This document shows, one piece after another, positions 27,027 through 32,934 of a DNA stretch of 64,000 nt. The first letter of the stretch is position 1. Each line of letters starts with the position of its first letter. Below the pieces are notes generated by a model that worked only from the letters and a program-made list of their open reading frames with translations, had not been told where the DNA came from and did not search any database. The translations under genes and the position numbers were made by a program. Source of the DNA: Nocardioides glacieisoli (GTDB taxonomy: Bacteria > Actinomycetota > Actinomycetes > Propionibacteriales > Nocardioidaceae); contig NZ_SDWS01000006.1 in the NCBI RefSeq assembly GCF_004137245.1, forward strand, positions 1-64,000, written 5' to 3'.

Positions 27027-27031
27027 CACTG

Positions 27032-27104
27032 CTCCCCCACCTGGACTCGAACCAGGAACCCTCCGATTAACAGTCGAATGCTCTGCCAATTGAGCTATAG
27101 GGGA
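27032..27104 (-). tRNA. tRNA-Asn (GTT)
   Basis: The minus strand folds as a complete tRNA: acceptor TCCCCTA/TGGGGGA with discriminator G, D-arm TAGCTCAATTGGCAGAGC, anticodon loop CTGTTAA (GTT) and T-arm CCTGGTTCGAGTCCAGG. CCA is not encoded. Confidence 0.95.
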
Positions 27105-27156: not shown

Positions 27157-27675
27157 TCAGGGCAGGCCGACCTCGATGCGCATCGCCTCGAGGGTGCTGA
27201 GGGCGATCTCGCGCACGGCCGGGTCGTCGGGGTCGACACCCTCGTCGTACTCGTAGATCCACTGGACCCCGTCGGATCCCGACGGCGCGCGGCGGGCGAT
27301 GACACGCAGCCCGCGACGGCCGGCCACGACGACGTGGCGCTGGAGGACGATGCTGGCGGTGACGCGCTCGCGGACCAGCTCCAGCAGCCGGCCGGGGTCG
27401 GTGAGCACTGCGGTGTGGATCGGTCGCTGCTCGCCCCACCTGCCGACCTCGGAGAGCCGGAAGGTGTCGGTGTCGCGGTCCCAGTCGGCGGCCTCGACCT
27501 GCTCCCACGGCACCCGATGGACCTCCCCGCCGTCGGCGGCGACGTAGAACGCGTCCCGCGTCCCGGCGAGCACCCTGCCGTCCTCCGCGCGGGTCACGGC
27601 GAGCACCTTCTCCCCGCGCGGGACGTCGACGCGTGGAACGAGCGAGCTGCGTCGCCAGCTGACGGGACCGATCAT
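27157..27675 (-). CDS. Conserved hypothetical protein downstream of dnaG
   Basis: A 172-residue soluble protein with no recognised domain. Its first half looks like a short beta-propeller or PH-like fold (VLAVTRAEDGRVLAGTRDAFYVA... HRVPWEQVEAADWDRD). The second half contains LLELVRERVTASIVLQRHV and an acidic end. The start codon overlaps the dnaG stop by 4 bases, so it is translationally coupled to the primase. Comparable proteins follow dnaG in related actinobacteria (from memory). Confidence 0.7.
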   Translation of the reverse strand: MIGPVSWRRSSLVPRVDVPRGEKVLAVTRAEDGRVLAGTRDAFYVAADGGEVHRVPWEQVEAADWDRDTDTFRLSEVGRWGEQRPIHTAVLTDPGRLLELVRERVTASIVLQRHVVVAGRRGLRVIARRAPSGSDGVQWIYEYDEGVDPDDPAVREIALSTLEAMRIEVGLP

Positions 27676-30515
27676 GACTGTGCCCCTGTCTGGCCGACGG
27701 CGCCGTCGCGCAGCTTGCGGCGGTGCTGCTCGAGCATCACCAGCTCACCGAACATCCGGTTGTACTCGAGCGCGTTGTCGACCGGGTTGGTGCGCTGGAG
27801 ACGGGCCTTGACGTCGGCGATCCGGCGCGCCGTGGTGAGCTCCTGGAGCCGGTAGACGTAGGCGACCGCGAAGGTCGGGTTGGGGTCGGAGGTGCCGCGC
27901 ACCGGCTCCACCCCCAGCTCGGTGACCGCAGCGATCACCGCGGGATCGGTCGCTGCGCCACGCACCTTGTTGGACCAACCGGGATCCTCCGCGCCTGCGG
28001 CAGGGCCGCCAGCCGTCGTGACCGCTTCCCAGACGCCCTGGAAGGTCGGGTGGGTGAAGTCGCCGGTCGTCACGTGCGCCGTCGTGCGGCCCACGCCGGC
28101 CGGGTGCTGGATGACGAGCTTGAGCATCTCCCGCTCGATGAGGAAGCGGGGGTCGGACAGGCTCGGCAGCGCCGGCCTCGTGGGCACGGGCTGCTCCGGC
28201 GCCTCGCTGGCCCGGGTCGTACGCCTCTCGTCGGGCTGCTTGGCGGGTCGGTTGGCCGCGCGGCGCACCTCGCTGCGGACCTCGTCGACGTCGACGCCGA
28301 CCATGTGGGCGAGCTCGCGGGAGAACGCGTCGACCTTGGTCTTGTCGCGGATGCCGGCGACCAGGCCGGCGGCGTCGCGGAGCGCGTCGATGCGCCCGTC
28401 GGCGCGGTCGAGGTCGTGGCGGGACAGGATGTTGTCGAGGGCGAAGCGGTAGAGCGGCTGGCGCTTGGCGACGAGCTCGCGCACCGCCTCGTCGCCGTCC
28501 TTGAGCCGGAGGTCGCACGGGTCCATGCCCTCGGGCGCCACCGCGACATAGGTCTGCGAGGCGAACACCTGGTCGCTCTCGAGAATCTTCATCGCGGCCT
28601 TCTGCCCGGCCGAGTCACCGTCGAAGGTGAAGATGACCTCCCCGCTGGTGCTGTCGTGGTCGCCGAGGAAGCGACGCAGCACCCGCGCGTGGTCGGTGCC
28701 GAACGCGGTGCCGCACGACGCCACTGCAGTGCGTACGCCGGCGAGGTGGCAGGCCATCACGTCGGTGTAGCCCTCGACGACGACGGCCTGCTGCGCGTCC
28801 TTCATCGCGGTGCGGGCCAGGTCGATGCCGTAGAGGACATGGCTCTTCTTGTAGATCGCCGTCTCGGAGGTGTTGAGGTACTTCGCCTCGATGCGGTCGT
28901 CGTCGAAGATCCGGCGCGCCCCGAAGCCGATGGTGTCGCCGTTGGCCTCGCGGATGGGCCAGACGAGGCGGCCGCGGAAGCGGTCGTAGTGGGAGCGGCC
29001 GTGGGCCACGAGGCCGGCAGCGACCGACTCCTCGTCGGTGAACCGGCGCCCTCGCAGGTGACGGGTCAGCGCCTCGCCGTCGCGCGGGGCGAAGCCGACG
29101 CCGAACATCTGGGCGGCAGCCTGGTCGAACCCGCGCTGGTCGAGGAACTGGCGCGCGATGACGGCGTCGGCGGTGCCGAGCTGCTCGGCGTAGAACTCCT
29201 GGGCGACCTTGTGGGCCTCGATCAACCGGCCCCGCGCCGGCCCGCGCGGTCGTACGGGTTCGTCGTCGCCCTCCTCGCGGCGCAGCTGGACGCCGTACTT
29301 CTCGGCGAGGCGCTCGACGGTCTCGGTGAAGGTGAGGCCGTCGACCTTCATCACGAAGGCGATGGCGTCGCCGCCTTCTCCGCAGCCGAAGCAGTTTCCC
29401 GTGAGGATGTTGTCCTCGAGCGTGAAGGCGTGCGTGCCGGGGACCTCCGCGCAGAAGACTTCTTCGGCCCGATCCGTGGCTTGGACGGACTGGACGACCC
29501 ACCCACGTCGGGCGAACGCCTTTTCGGTCTCCAGGAAACGCTCGCGGTGTCGATCGATGAGGAAGAAGTCCTCGCGAAGGTCCTCGTTCACCAGGTGAAT
29601 GCGGAACAGATCGGACGGTTCACGCCCTTCGAACCCGACTCGCGACTGGCTGGTGATGCCGTAGGTGCCGATGCCGAGCCTGGTGCACAGGTCGCGGACG
29701 AATTCGAGATTGTCCTTGGTAGCCGAGTTGAGGATGACCGTGCCGTCCTCGGCCACGCAGCCGTCAGCTGCAAAGTAGCCCGCGAGCCAGCCGTAGAGGT
29801 AGGAGACCGACTCATGAAGCTCTGGCGTCGACTTGAAGAAAGCGGGCAGGTCCAGGACCAGGATGTTGTCGTCCTTGGCCGCCGTCTGGCTTTGCGGAAA
29901 CCATTTCAGCATGGCCATGTCCTTGGGCGGACAGAGCTGGGCGACGGACCCGCTGCCGGCACGCGTGCCGTCACCGAAGGTGAACCCGTGCGCGATGCCG
30001 AAAGGTGACGGACGCGTGCGGGCGGTGCGCGTGCGGGGGAACACAGTGACGAGCCTGTCCCCCTGCTTGAGGTCAGTGGTAAGTACCTCGCGGCGCGACT
30101 GACGCCTGGCCCCCGCCTTGACGAACCAGCGGTGACCATCCGTCGCGAACAGCTCCTTCACCTGACGGTTTCGGGTGAGGGTGATCCGCCACAGGGGCTG
30201 GACACCGTACGAGCTGAACGGCGCGTCCACCCAACGACCATCGCCGCCCAGCACCCGGTGCACGCCGCCCGACAGCTCCGAGATCGACCGTGCACCCTGG
30301 TCGGTCAGCACGCGCGTCTCGCCCGCCAGGCAGTGGAAGAACTGCCGCGCGGGGTTGACGTTGAACGAGGGCGTCTTCTCGTCGTGGAACGGGCACAGGC
30401 CCTTGAGCGAGCCGCCGCCGGCCCGCTTGAGGGTGACGTACTGCGACACGACGTCGTCGATCCGCGCCTTCTCACGCACCTCGGCGATGTCGTCGTCGCG
30501 AATCCGGCCTGCCAC
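27672..30515 (-). CDS. dnaG: DNA primase carrying an in-frame intein
   Basis: Makes RNA primers at the replication fork. The precursor has 947 residues: about 634 of primase plus a 313-residue intein at 62-374. Host domains are the CHC2 zinc finger (CPFHDEKTPSFNVNPARQFFH, then CFGCGEGG after splicing), the TOPRIM catalytic core (VVEGYTDVMA, FTFDGDSAGQKA, GMDPCD) and a DnaB-interacting C-terminus. I use GTG 30515 (GRIRDDDIAEVREKA), the usual actinobacterial start, rather than the longer frame to 30563. The intein separates zinc ligands His44 and Cys375, so the gene depends on splicing for a complete zinc site. Confidence 0.95.
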   Translation of the reverse strand: MAGRIRDDDIAEVREKARIDDVVSQYVTLKRAGGGSLKGLCPFHDEKTPSFNVNPARQFFHCLAGETRVLTDQGARSISELSGGVHRVLGGDGRWVDAPFSSYGVQPLWRITLTRNRQVKELFATDGHRWFVKAGARRQSRREVLTTDLKQGDRLVTVFPRTRTARTRPSPFGIAHGFTFGDGTRAGSGSVAQLCPPKDMAMLKWFPQSQTAAKDDNILVLDLPAFFKSTPELHESVSYLYGWLAGYFAADGCVAEDGTVILNSATKDNLEFVRDLCTRLGIGTYGITSQSRVGFEGREPSDLFRIHLVNEDLREDFFLIDRHRERFLETEKAFARRGWVVQSVQATDRAEEVFCAEVPGTHAFTLEDNILTGNCFGCGEGGDAIAFVMKVDGLTFTETVERLAEKYGVQLRREEGDDEPVRPRGPARGRLIEAHKVAQEFYAEQLGTADAVIARQFLDQRGFDQAAAQMFGVGFAPRDGEALTRHLRGRRFTDEESVAAGLVAHGRSHYDRFRGRLVWPIREANGDTIGFGARRIFDDDRIEAKYLNTSETAIYKKSHVLYGIDLARTAMKDAQQAVVVEGYTDVMACHLAGVRTAVASCGTAFGTDHARVLRRFLGDHDSTSGEVIFTFDGDSAGQKAAMKILESDQVFASQTYVAVAPEGMDPCDLRLKDGDEAVRELVAKRQPLYRFALDNILSRHDLDRADGRIDALRDAAGLVAGIRDKTKVDAFSRELAHMVGVDVDEVRSEVRRAANRPAKQPDERRTTRASEAPEQPVPTRPALPSLSDPRFLIEREMLKLVIQHPAGVGRTTAHVTTGDFTHPTFQGVWEAVTTAGGPAAGAEDPGWSNKVRGAATDPAVIAAVTELGVEPVRGTSDPNPTFAVAYVYRLQELTTARRIADVKARLQRTNPVDNALEYNRMFGELVMLEQHRRKLRDGAVGQTGAQS
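29394..30332 (-). other. DnaG intein with two-motif LAGLIDADG endonuclease
   Basis: A 313-residue intervening element. It begins with Cys1 in CLAGETRVLT (block A), has the block B motif ATDGHRWFV at 63-71 with His67, LAGLIDADG-like motifs GIAHGFTFGDG (112-122) and YGWLAGYFAADG (180-191), both keeping the acidic residue, then block F EVFCAEVPGTHAFTL and block G NILTGN, followed by +1 Cys. The penultimate residue is Gly instead of the usual His. Codon and base composition look less GC-rich than the flanking primase. It is inserted immediately before the third zinc-ligand cysteine of DnaG. Confidence 0.93.
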
Positions 30516-30631
30516 GCCGCGGAGTCTACGGGCGCGCACCCACCCCCGCGGACGGGTCTCCACAACAGCGGCGCACCCCTATGGGTTAGCACGGCTGGTG
30601 TCGACGGACCGGGTTTGGGAAGGTCGATGTC

Positions 30632-31039
30632 ATGACTGCTCAGCACGGAGCGCCAGAGGGTCAGACCCTCGGCGCACTTGTCCACCAGCTCTCCCAGCAG
30701 ATCCCGGAGCTCATCCGCTCCGAGATCCGGCTGGCCCAGGCGGAGGTCGCCCAGAAGGGCAAGCGCGCCGGCGTCGGGATCGGCATGTTCAGCGTCGCCG
30801 GACTGCTCGCGTTCTTCGCCGTGGCGACCTTCGTCACCACTGCCATCCTGGCTCTCGCGAACGTCGTCGACGCCTGGCTCGCCGCCCTCATCGTCGGCCT
30901 CGTGCTGCTCGCCGGCGCCGCCGTCGCCGGCCTGGCCGGCAAGAACAAGGTCGCCGAGGCCACCCCGGCAGCGCCCGAGCGCGCGATCCAGGGCATCAAG
31001 GACGACGTCGCCACCGTGAAGGGAGCCCACCATGACTGA
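30632..31039 (+). CDS. Phage holin family (DUF1469-type) membrane protein
   Basis: A 135-residue protein with an amphipathic N-terminal helix (LVHQLSQQIPELIRSEIRLAQAEV), two adjacent transmembrane helices (FSVAGLLAFFAVATFVTTAILALANVV and WLAALIVGLVLLAGAAVAGLAG) and a basic/charged tail. It matches the Actinobacteriophage holin superfamily III (Phage_holin_3_6), which is chromosomal and common in actinobacteria and does not indicate a prophage. First gene of a three-gene envelope cluster. Confidence 0.85.
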   Translation: MTAQHGAPEGQTLGALVHQLSQQIPELIRSEIRLAQAEVAQKGKRAGVGIGMFSVAGLLAFFAVATFVTTAILALANVVDAWLAALIVGLVLLAGAAVAGLAGKNKVAEATPAAPERAIQGIKDDVATVKGAHHD

Positions 31040-31292
31040 CCAGACCGGCGAGGCCCGCACCCCCGAGCAGATCGAGGCCGAGATCGAGGCCCAGCGCGCC
31101 CAGCTCGCCGGCACCGTCGACCAGCTCGCCGCGAAGCTGGACGTGAAGTCCCAGGCGAAGGAGAAGGTCGCCTCGATCAAGGACTCCGCCACGACCGACT
31201 CCGGGACCCCGAGGCCCGAGGTGCTCGCTGCCGCCGGGTCGCTCGTCGCGATGGGCGTCGTGCTGCTCCTCTGGCGCCGACGCTCGCACTGA
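31032..31292 (+). CDS. DUF3618 family membrane protein
   Basis: An 86-residue protein. The N-terminal part is a charged helix (TPEQIEAEIEAQRAQLAGTVDQLAAKLD) typical of DUF3618, followed by a spacer and a single C-terminal transmembrane helix (VLAAAGSLVAMGVVLLLW) ending in RRRSH. Its start overlaps the upstream gene by 8 bases. Function unknown; it is usually found next to the holin-like gene. Confidence 0.85.
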   Translation: MTDQTGEARTPEQIEAEIEAQRAQLAGTVDQLAAKLDVKSQAKEKVASIKDSATTDSGTPRPEVLAAAGSLVAMGVVLLLWRRRSH

Positions 31293-31329
31293 CCACACCC
31301 CACCACGAACCAACCCGAGGGAGACCACC

Positions 31330-31662
31330 ATGAAGAAGCTCACGCTGCTCATCGCCGGAGGTATCGGCTACGTGCTCGGCACCCGTGCCGGCCGCGAGCG
31401 CTACGAACAGATCAAGAAGGCCGCGACCCGGGTCAAGGACGACCCGCGCGTGCAGGAGAAGGCGACGCAGGCCGCCGACCTGGCCAAGGAGAAGGCGCCC
31501 GTCGTCAAGGACAAGGTCGCGGCGGCAGCAAGCACCGCGGCCGACAAGGTGACTCCCTCCGGCAGCGGCAACGGCGACCACCGCTCCGACCTCGAGGACC
31601 AGCTCAACCCCGAGAGCACCGCGCTCCAGGACAACCCCTACCCGCAGGGCAACCTGCCCTGA
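31330..31662 (+). CDS. YtxH-like membrane-anchored helical protein
   Basis: A 110-residue protein with an N-terminal hydrophobic segment (KKLTLLIAGGIGYVLGTRAGRERYEQI), a long Ala/Lys-rich amphipathic helix (about 35-75) likely to form a coiled coil, and a flexible polar tail. The GYVLGTRAGRERY segment is typical of this actinobacterial family, which resembles YtxH stress proteins. It is the last gene of the cluster; its stop abuts the convergent dgt stop with no gap. Confidence 0.8.
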   Translation: MKKLTLLIAGGIGYVLGTRAGRERYEQIKKAATRVKDDPRVQEKATQAADLAKEKAPVVKDKVAAAASTAADKVTPSGSGNGDHRSDLEDQLNPESTALQDNPYPQGNLP

Positions 31663-32934
31663 TCAACCGATCAGCGCGGCATGACGCGCGACGGCGCTCG
31701 CGTCGGTCAACGAGGCCACCTGGTCGATGACCACGCGGCGCCGTCCCGCGTCGTCCGCCGCGTCGTCCCAGTCGTGCACGAAGACCGGGTCGAGGGCGTC
31801 GGAGCCGCGGTCCCAGAGTGCCTCGACGAGCTCGGCGACCAATGAGCGCTGGCGCTCCATCAGGCTCACCCGGTCGTCGGCCTGCATGACGTAGTGGGCG
31901 GCGATGCCCTTGAGCACGCCGATCTCCACCTCGGTGTCGGCCGGGACGACCAGGTCGGCCCGGTGTCGCACGAGCGGCTCTCCGCCCGCCGCGGCGAAGG
32001 TCGACTCCTGCACGCTGCCGCAGAACCGCCCGATGAGGTCGCTCGTGAGGTTCTTGATCGCGGCCAGGCTCCGCCTGCTGCCGTCGTACGACGACCGCGG
32101 CCAGGACCCGATCGCACGCAGGTCGGCGAGCGCCCGGTCGAGCGCGACGTCGTCGATGCCCGGCAGGTACCAGGACCGCACGGTCGCCCACAAGGCGTCG
32201 CGGTCGAGGCGGGTGAGGTCGAGGCGACCGGCCACGATGCCGTCCTCGACGTCGTGCACCGAGTAGGCGACGTCGTCGGCGAGGTCCATCACCTGCGCCT
32301 CGAGGCACCGTCCGCGCCCCTCGACGCCGAGGCGCAACCAGTCGAAGACCGGGCGGTCGTCGTCGTAGACACCGAACTTCACCACCACGCGCGGGGTGCC
32401 GTCGGCGTGCACGCCGTGCGGGCCGTCGGCCGACGAGCGCGACCACGGGTACTTGGTGCAGGCGTCGAGGGTGGCCCGGGTGAGGTTCAGCCCGACCGAC
32501 CGGCCGTCGGCGTCGAACGTCTTCGACTCCAGCCGGGTCAGGATCCGCAGCGTCTGGGCGTTGCCCTCGAACCCGCCGCACCCGGCGCTGAGCTCGGCCA
32601 GCGCCCGCTCGCCGTTGTGCCCGAAGGGCGGGTGGCCGAGGTCATGCGCGAGCGCGGCCGTCTCGGCGATGTCGGGGTGCGTGCCGAGTGCCCGGGCGAG
32701 GTCGCGGGAGATCTGGGCGACCTCGAGGCTGTGCGTGAGCCGGTTGCGGACGAAGTCGTCGGTCTGCGGACCGACGACCTGCGTCTTCGCCGCGAGCCGC
32801 CGCGACGCGGCCGCGTGGACCACGCGCGCCCGGTCGCGCTCGAACGCCAGCCGCACAGGTGCGTCGACGCGCTTGGGCGGCTCGGCGACGACGCGCTCGC
32901 GCGCCGCGTCGTCGTACAGGTCCTCGATGCTCAT
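31663..32934 (-). CDS. dgt: dGTP triphosphohydrolase-like HD-domain protein
   Basis: Hydrolyses deoxynucleoside triphosphates, probably dGTP, to the nucleoside and tripolyphosphate. The 423-residue protein contains the HD metal site: His in RNRLTHSLEV near 67, HDLGHPPFGHNGE near 97-109, and Asp in MDLADDVAYSVHD near 220. The length and these motifs fit the deoxyguanosinetriphosphate triphosphohydrolase-like family encoded upstream of dnaG in actinobacteria. Here the holin-type cluster separates the two. Confidence 0.92.
   Translation of the reverse strand: MSIEDLYDDAARERVVAEPPKRVDAPVRLAFERDRARVVHAAASRRLAAKTQVVGPQTDDFVRNRLTHSLEVAQISRDLARALGTHPDIAETAALAHDLGHPPFGHNGERALAELSAGCGGFEGNAQTLRILTRLESKTFDADGRSVGLNLTRATLDACTKYPWSRSSADGPHGVHADGTPRVVVKFGVYDDDRPVFDWLRLGVEGRGRCLEAQVMDLADDVAYSVHDVEDGIVAGRLDLTRLDRDALWATVRSWYLPGIDDVALDRALADLRAIGSWPRSSYDGSRRSLAAIKNLTSDLIGRFCGSVQESTFAAAGGEPLVRHRADLVVPADTEVEIGVLKGIAAHYVMQADDRVSLMERQRSLVAELVEALWDRGSDALDPVFVHDWDDAADDAGRRRVVIDQVASLTDASAVARHAALIG

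Follow-up and report, generated by a model that had tools for sequence, protein, structure and literature searches.

The DNA primase gene dnaG of Nocardioides glacieisoli, located on a 64,000-nucleotide stretch of contig NZ_SDWS01000006.1 (the window), is interrupted by an intein of 313 residues, which carries both the N-terminal cysteine of a class 1 intein and the complete Trp-Cys-Thr triplet described as the signature of class 3 inteins (PMC5222942). We regard it as virtually certain that residues 78-390 of the DnaG precursor are an intein. The initial annotation of the window had placed a 313-residue in-frame intein at 29394-30332, between the second and third zinc ligands of DnaG. These coordinates proved to be exact; what the annotation overlooked is the complete class 3 triplet alongside Cys1. 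The relevant features are listed below (rows are the 74 distinct DnaG intein sequences described later).

27672..30563, minus strand: dnaG, DNA primase precursor, 963 amino acids including the intein, GTG start as listed, assigned by profile matches.
30333..30563, minus strand: N-extein, residues 1-77, with the zinc ligands Cys57 (30393-30395) and His60 (30384-30386).
29394..30332, minus strand: intein, 313 amino acids, Cys1 to Asn313 (precursor residues 78-390), assigned by the empty site, homologues and fold.
27672..29393, minus strand: C-extein, whose +1 Cys (29391-29393) and +4 Cys (29382-29384) are zinc ligands 3 and 4.
30330..30332, minus strand: codon of Cys1, the putative class 1 nucleophile, Cys in 74/74 rows.
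30126..30143, minus strand: block B, TDGHRW, with Thr B:7, His B:10 and Trp B:12, each in 74/74 rows.
29961..30002, minus strand: first LAGLIDADG-type motif, FGIAHGFTFGDGTR, with Asp121, Asp in 61/74 rows (mini-inteins counted).
29754..29801, minus strand: second LAGLIDADG-type motif, YLYGWLAGYFAADGCV, with Asp190, Asp in 60/74 rows and 10 gaps, matched by Pfam LAGLIDADG_3.
29394..29468, minus strand: blocks F and G, with Cys294 (F:4, 29451-29453), His301, Thr311 (G:5), Gly312 (G:6) and Asn313.

The precursor scored above the cut-offs of the profiles TIGR01391 (356.6 bits, cut-off 283.6) and Zn_ribbon_DnaG (109.5 bits, cut-off 24.9), it also matched Toprim_4 and DnaG_DnaB_bind, and the genome has one true dnaG. 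On joining the flanks the junction reads FFH/CFGC, with the insert lying directly before the third zinc ligand. The insert splits the Pfam CHC2 zinc-ribbon match at profile position 59, and the zinc spacing is C57-x2-H60-x17-C-x2-C. Precursor residues 19-78 could be aligned by phmmer with residues 3-61 of the primase zinc domain 1d0q, whose zinc ligands we take to be residues 40, 43, 61 and 64; in this alignment the intein Cys1 occupies the position of ligand 3 of intein-free DnaG. The four ligands and the intein Cys1 are invariant in 39/39 aligned precursors, and the earlier proposal that the +1 extein Cys is itself a zinc ligand is borne out. The GC content of the intein is 65.4% vs. 71.2% in the exteins (83% vs. 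94% at third codon positions).

The annotation had suggested that intein-free relatives should be compared at the predicted junction. Among 59 genomes of the genus, 57 had a DnaG match, and eleven loci were inspected, the eight most similar and three more. The intein-free site F(F/W/Y)HCFGC was uninterrupted in all 11 (70-94% identity in the 573-aa C-terminal part; 88-94% for the eight most similar, all without insert), which argues strongly against the insert being a normal part of DnaG. Inteins at the same site were found in DnaG at 93 loci (74 distinct sequences) in Actinomycetota and Alphaproteobacteria. The view that the intein occupies a conserved position in a replication protein is supported. 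An AlphaFold2 model of the intein (28-row alignment, predicted local distance difference test score (pLDDT) 83.6) shows a Hint fold into which an endonuclease is inserted, and its best structural match was PI-PfuI (1dq3, Z 22.2, 3.4 Å over 299 residues), with VMA inteins also matched; the scores against class 1 NpuDnaE (Z 18.8) and class 3 DnaBi1 (6bs8, Z 17.8) were close together. A model of the precursor with both exteins (pLDDT 83.3) gave structure matches covering the intein part. No usable relative was found among PDB sequences, whether the query was the intein by itself or the A1 profile (best E 0.22 and 1.1).

The window intein begins with CLAGETRV, its block B reads ATDGHRW, and it ends in ILTGN followed by the +1 Cys. 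The terminal splicing motifs, the block B His and the two LAGLIDADG-type motifs with acidic residues (Asp121 and Asp190), all named in the initial annotation, are present. Pfam LAGLIDADG_3 scored above its cut-off (31.2 vs. 22.5 bits), and judged by its intact motifs the insert is a putative LAGLIDADG homing endonuclease. All 74 distinct DnaG inteins have Cys1, Thr B:7, His B:10, Trp B:12, Cys F:4, Thr G:5, Gly G:6, Asn G:7 and the +1 and +4 Cys, His F:13 is present in 73/74, and 32 of the 137 splice-domain columns are invariant in all rows. With all splicing residues kept in 74/74 distinct homologues, the intein reading of the insert is not a chance resemblance. For the active-site count the 93 loci were merged to 74 distinct sequences, L029 (contig end) as well as L083 and L112 (not DnaG) were omitted, and two codons were added at the end of L055. 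Over the 93 loci Cys1 is encoded by TGC in 81 and by TGT in 12. The annotation was right in noting a penultimate Gly instead of His, but this cannot be taken as a defect because the Gly is invariant in 74/74 distinct relatives. In a phage class 1 intein, that of a recombination directionality factor (RDF), which has a natural penultimate Gly, splicing became slower when this Gly was replaced by His (PMC5050341).

The class 1 set (Cys1, TxxH) and the complete class 3 triplet occur together in 74/74 sequences. The marks of class 1 are all found, namely the N-terminal nucleophile, the block B TxxH, the C-terminal Asn and the +1 nucleophile, whereas from those of class 3 the triplet Trp B:12/Cys F:4/Thr G:5 is found and the nucleophile-free position 1 is not (Cys1 in 74/74). 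Cys1 and TxxH are regarded as class 1 features, the Thr of TxxH spring-loading residue 1 and being generally missing from class 3 (PMC6195587). A class 3 survey used the rule that Cys is missing at position 1 (PMC7891396), thus the DnaG intein is not filed under class 3. As references we used DnaB inteins from one genus (g59), 18 at one site and 4 at another. The 18 class 3 references all have Ala1, Asp B:7 and Trp-Cys-Thr; the four class 1 references have Cys1, Thr B:7, and Phe and Asp at triplet positions.

The same family includes inteins without Cys1. Five distinct inteins of class II ribonucleotide reductases (seven viral loci, L103-L109) start with Pro, their N-extein ends in GYN or GFN, the +1 residue is Cys, and the joined flank is one ungapped match to intein-free phage reductases. 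These Pro1 inteins carry Trp-Cys-Thr in 5/5 distinct rows, and reside at the same reductase site as the Cys1 relatives L101, L102 and L110. With the DnaG splice-domain profile the Pro1 rows scored 83-97 bits, the class 3 DnaB inteins at most 8.1 (18 rows) and the class 1 DnaB inteins 2.7; with the full-length DnaG profile, scores of up to 23.1 bits (E 7.9e-8) were obtained for some of the class 3 DnaB set. In the full-length family tree (40/66 rows, all DnaB and mini-intein rows omitted, root not inferred) the Pro1 inteins form a clade (99/95) within a 35-row side that is separated (100/100) from five nrdA rows; on this side Trp and Cys are kept in 35/35 rows and Thr in 32/35. In a second intein tree (57/66 rows, nine class 3 DnaB rows omitted) the DnaG-family and class 3 DnaB inteins are separate. 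Joining the Pro1 and class 3 rows, i.e. a single origin of the nucleophile loss, was not rejected by the approximately unbiased test (p-AU 0.228), hence we do not claim two origins. Since primase inteins of phages and a plasmid are interspersed with the DnaG inteins, a clade made up of the latter alone was disfavoured (p-AU 0.034). The simplest reading is that the triplet may have been there first and that Cys1 was lost later in the reductase branch: as this branch lies within the family, the triplet may predate the loss. A firmer statement is held back by the approximately unbiased test, by the uninferred root and by the search patterns behind the viral loci, which contained the F:4 Cys or the block B Trp. 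A longer chain, in which the triplet arose before the loss of Cys1, class 3 chemistry could be reached without a non-splicing intermediate, possibly repeatedly, and the DnaG thiols at the unfinished ribbon could link maturation to zinc, is speculative, and we doubt that it holds in full.

The Pro1 inteins with their triplet (5/5 distinct rows), like the Trp-Cys-Thr of 74/74 DnaG inteins, lend some weight to a class 3 route, in which Cys294 (F:4) would attack the N-junction and form a branched thioester, the +1 Cys would act next, and Cys1 would be dispensable, kept e.g. for structure or protection. The Catera Gp206 intein has reportedly been assigned to class 3 despite Ser as its first residue. 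In the class 3 IcmO intein the F:4 Cys is obligate and acts before the natural +1 Cys (PMC5222942). However, Cys1 and Thr B:7 are invariant in 74/74 sequences, where the class 3 references have Ala1 and Asp B:7, the survey defines class 3 through the missing position-1 Cys (PMC7891396), and introducing Trp-Cys-Thr into a class 1 intein by engineering did not make it splice by the class 3 route (PMC7664689). We consider the class 3 route rather unlikely, and favour, with some reserve, Cys1 as the residue that attacks first.

The sequence of events can be pictured as follows. A single precursor would be made, from which the Hint domain would excise itself, joining residue 77 to the +1 Cys. Cys1, primed by Thr B:7 and His B:10, would form the thioester at the start, the N-extein would then be passed to the +1 Cys, Asn313, preceded by Gly rather than His, would cyclise, and an S-N shift would follow. 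Splicing would bring ligands 3 and 4 beside ligands 1 and 2 and thereby restore the CHC2 zinc ribbon. Only one replicative primase gene was found, thus primase would be broken if splicing were absent; the intein very probably splices in its host. Trp B:12, Cys F:4 and Thr G:5 would represent an inherited active-site scaffold, already in the class 3 layout, which would allow the reductase branch to lose Cys1 (Pro1) while splicing continues. The target of homing would be the very conserved DNA encoding the third and fourth zinc ligands.

In the family of the window's host, 31 of the 294 genomes, in 3/26 genera, carry the intein; 32 genomes matched, but one (G246) is a weak partial match without this insert, and one carrier (G166) is interrupted by a contig end. 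At the order level 15/293 genomes matched, all of the same family and largely the same genomes, and at the phylum level 3/396; besides the genome of the window these had matches in a DnaG (L111) and in a dCMP deaminase (L112). In the latter (L112:1234-2643) the deaminase is split by a relative of the DnaG intein (HDN/C ... VGN/C), which has a Gly-Asn end and Val at G:5. Of the 63 loci yielded by a pattern scan of genome contigs, 62 have the intein at this site of DnaG and one is a reductase-like gene; the hosts were Nocardioides and relatives, Jiangella, Actinocatenispora, Geodermatophilaceae and Frankiaceae, with seven alphaproteobacterial loci. The DnaG and intein of L060, from a record titled Bacillus sp. 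AZ43, resemble those of Blastococcus, and the label is probably wrong.

Among viruses, patterns including the F:4 Cys or the block B Trp led to 15 loci: three primase-like (L096, L098 and L100; L098 and L100 have identical junctions), ten reductases, one poly(A)-polymerase-like (L097, with Ser at +1) and one unassigned (L099, with a Gln end). In L096 the profile is broken at position 59, as in DnaG, with a Pfam CHC2 score under the cut-off (16.2 vs. 24.9 bits); for L098 CHC2 was not reported. From the CxxH...CxxC reading and the Toprim matches, the intein sites of the phage primase-like proteins are probably equivalent to the DnaG site. At E <= 0.01 there were matches to 132 records of named phages, and the annotated rows among the matches listed were mostly reductases. 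Two of 72,556 plasmids matched, through a Skermanella MobF relaxase and a Nostoc reductase. The relaxase, encoded by plasmid pSR-4 of Skermanella rosea (L113), has an AAA domain and a CHC2 finger (77.7 bits, cut-off 24.9); a DnaG-type intein with 47% identity splits this finger at profile position 60.

Patchy presence, an excess of intein over extein identity between distant genomes and purifying selection on the endonuclease indicate that the DnaG intein is mobile; as far as sequences can tell, it is also real and intact. On a quick C-extein tree of 57 rows the presence of the intein required at least 13 gains or losses, at least nine of them forced by starred branches. Shuffling gave a mean of 19.2 changes, with 1/500 shuffles as low as 13, thus the presence is patchy but not random. 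The rows nearest to the window (C-exteins 95% identical) are without intein. Identity to the window was higher for the intein than for the C-extein in Jiangella (72 vs. 54%), Actinocatenispora (66 vs. 52%), Novosphingobium (50 vs. 32%) and Azospirillum (48 vs. 31%). In the full-length intein tree the Jiangella and Actinocatenispora inteins fall within a Nocardioides clade (100/98). The alphaproteobacterial DnaG inteins share another clade (98/99) with the intein of the plasmid and that of one phage primase. The ratio of nonsynonymous to synonymous substitution rates in six pairs was 0.05-0.13 for the endonuclease (6/6) and 0-0.10 for the splice domain, one pair being nearly identical; the endonuclease was probably active in the recent past. 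Eleven loci have mini-inteins without endonuclease (145-209 residues in nine, 154 in L030), which keep all splicing residues, suggesting that splicing was maintained where homing was lost. The distribution, supported by the purifying selection and the patchy presence, fits homing; with the splicing residues intact in 74/74 sequences, this agrees with the first impression of an intein that is intact and capable of homing.

Taken together, exact insertion, splicing residues, same-site homologues and transfer between lineages are what we see as the marks of a LAGLIDADG homing intein spreading among primase genes, with a class 1 start as the most likely mode of splicing, and on balance this is the interpretation we prefer. 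Several observations weigh against it. The intein scored under the cut-offs of Pfam Intein_splicing (PF14890, 16.4 vs. 35.8 bits) and NCBIfam intein_Nterm (12.7 vs. 24.5) and intein_Cterm (14.0 vs. 15.6). For L002, the nearest relative with the intein, identity to the window is 81% in the intein and higher, 87.5%, in the C-extein, and this pair therefore gives no sign of transfer. The pattern search of genome contigs found part of its matches via a Trp-bearing block B; 31 loci in the count, from the family, order and phylum searches, were found by profile or BLAST and not by pattern. The class 3 triplet is as invariant as Cys1 (74/74), which fits a start by Cys F:4 equally, and in the Pro1 relatives the scaffold stands without Cys1. 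The low profile scores would also suit an ordinary lineage-specific DnaG segment or a dead intein, possibilities that are hardly credible in view of the empty sites, the 93 loci with their open frames and invariant catalytic residues, the single dnaG and the intein fold, and both were dropped. PF14890 gave no match over the whole genome of the host at E <= 0.1, the DnaG intein included, hence standard models can miss this intein, and other such inserts may hide in annotated primases.

The position of Cys1 at the place of ligand 3 and the invariance of the ligands bring up a switch governed by zinc or redox state: zinc could be bound by the half-built site (Cys57 and His60 with Cys1, or with the +1 and +4 Cys), or active-site thiols could be oxidised, and conditional maturation of primase would benefit the host. 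Mycobacterial DnaBi1 is inhibited in cells by zinc, which binds to its F:4 Cys (PMC7360933), and oxidation of the same Cys likewise blocks splicing (PMC6195587). However, the same geometry is expected of any Cys1 intein inserted before a ligand Cys. In DnaBi1 the zinc is held by the F:4 Cys, the next backbone atoms and a Tyr (PMC7360933), and if the two inteins are aligned by block F this Tyr corresponds to Phe303 in the DnaG intein, thus the exact site would not be kept. Moreover, the intein is patchily distributed, near relatives have the empty site, and it has spread into genes of phages and plasmids, all of which resembles a mobile element rather than a switch of the host, and we find such a switch improbable.

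The next same-strand gene upstream of dnaG is the following:

31663..32934, minus strand: dgt, dGTP triphosphohydrolase (NF002829, 554.8 bits, cut-off 385).

It places dnaG in a chromosomal setting. Small plus-strand genes lie between dnaG and dgt (30632-31662), and the two that were searched had no NCBIfam matches at 1e-5. A tRNA-Asn gene is found shortly downstream of dnaG (27031-27104, minus strand). Elsewhere in the genome a second, weaker DnaG match (L143, G000:C4:17242-18174; 145 bits, profile 104-395), comprising the catalytic core and beginning beyond the zinc finger, lies in a 2090-residue frame, which is possibly a conjugation protein; similar long frames occur in several further genomes of the genus.

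An intein with the marks of two splicing chemistries could serve to examine by what path the one gave rise to the other. The combination of Cys1 with a complete triplet is widespread, and the Pro1 members inside the family suggest a triplet-first order, which makes the family suited to testing class evolution. It also offers inteins that are closely matched, some having the endonuclease and some lacking it, and that reside in an essential enzyme of replication in harmless soil bacteria, where splicing and assembly of the metal site are one event. DnaG is listed among intein hosts in a review table, the excerpt giving neither site nor sequence (PMC5874633), and an intein in a Toprim primase is among those listed in a study of mycobacteriophages (PMC5050341). 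DnaG as an intein host is thus known; we found no description of the insertion site or of the dual signature in the literature searched, which excluded intein databases, supplementary tables and most subscription papers.

It is instructive to compare the DnaG intein with known systems. Class 1 LAGLIDADG inteins such as that of the phage RDF Bethlehem gp51 share with it Cys1, TxxH, Asn, the +1 Cys, the penultimate Gly and the endonuclease (PMC5050341), but the DnaG family differs from them by Cys F:4, Trp B:12 and Thr G:5 in all 74 rows; among inteins generally F:4 is most often Asp (PMC4031507). The class 3 mycobacterial inteins DnaBi1 and MchDnaB1 (PMC6195587, PMC7664689) share the triplet and the fold is alike (6bs8, 2.1 Å over 123 residues), whereas the DnaG intein has Cys1, Thr B:7, a +1 Cys instead of Ser/Thr and a penultimate Gly instead of His, and the splice-domain profile similarity to class 3 DnaB inteins is at noise level. 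The gp41-1 intein has Cys1 and the class 3-like Thr G:5 in common with the DnaG inteins, and differs by Asp F:4 and Phe B:12 (the mutations D107C and F65W are named in 6riz). The nearest family, by tblastn in named phages, are the ribonucleotide reductase inteins (Thermobifida phage P318, nrdD, class II nrdJ). Many of these share Cys1 and Trp-Cys-Thr with the DnaG inteins, from which they differ in the host protein, in Phe/Tyr at B:12 of nrdA and in the Pro1 of one class II branch.

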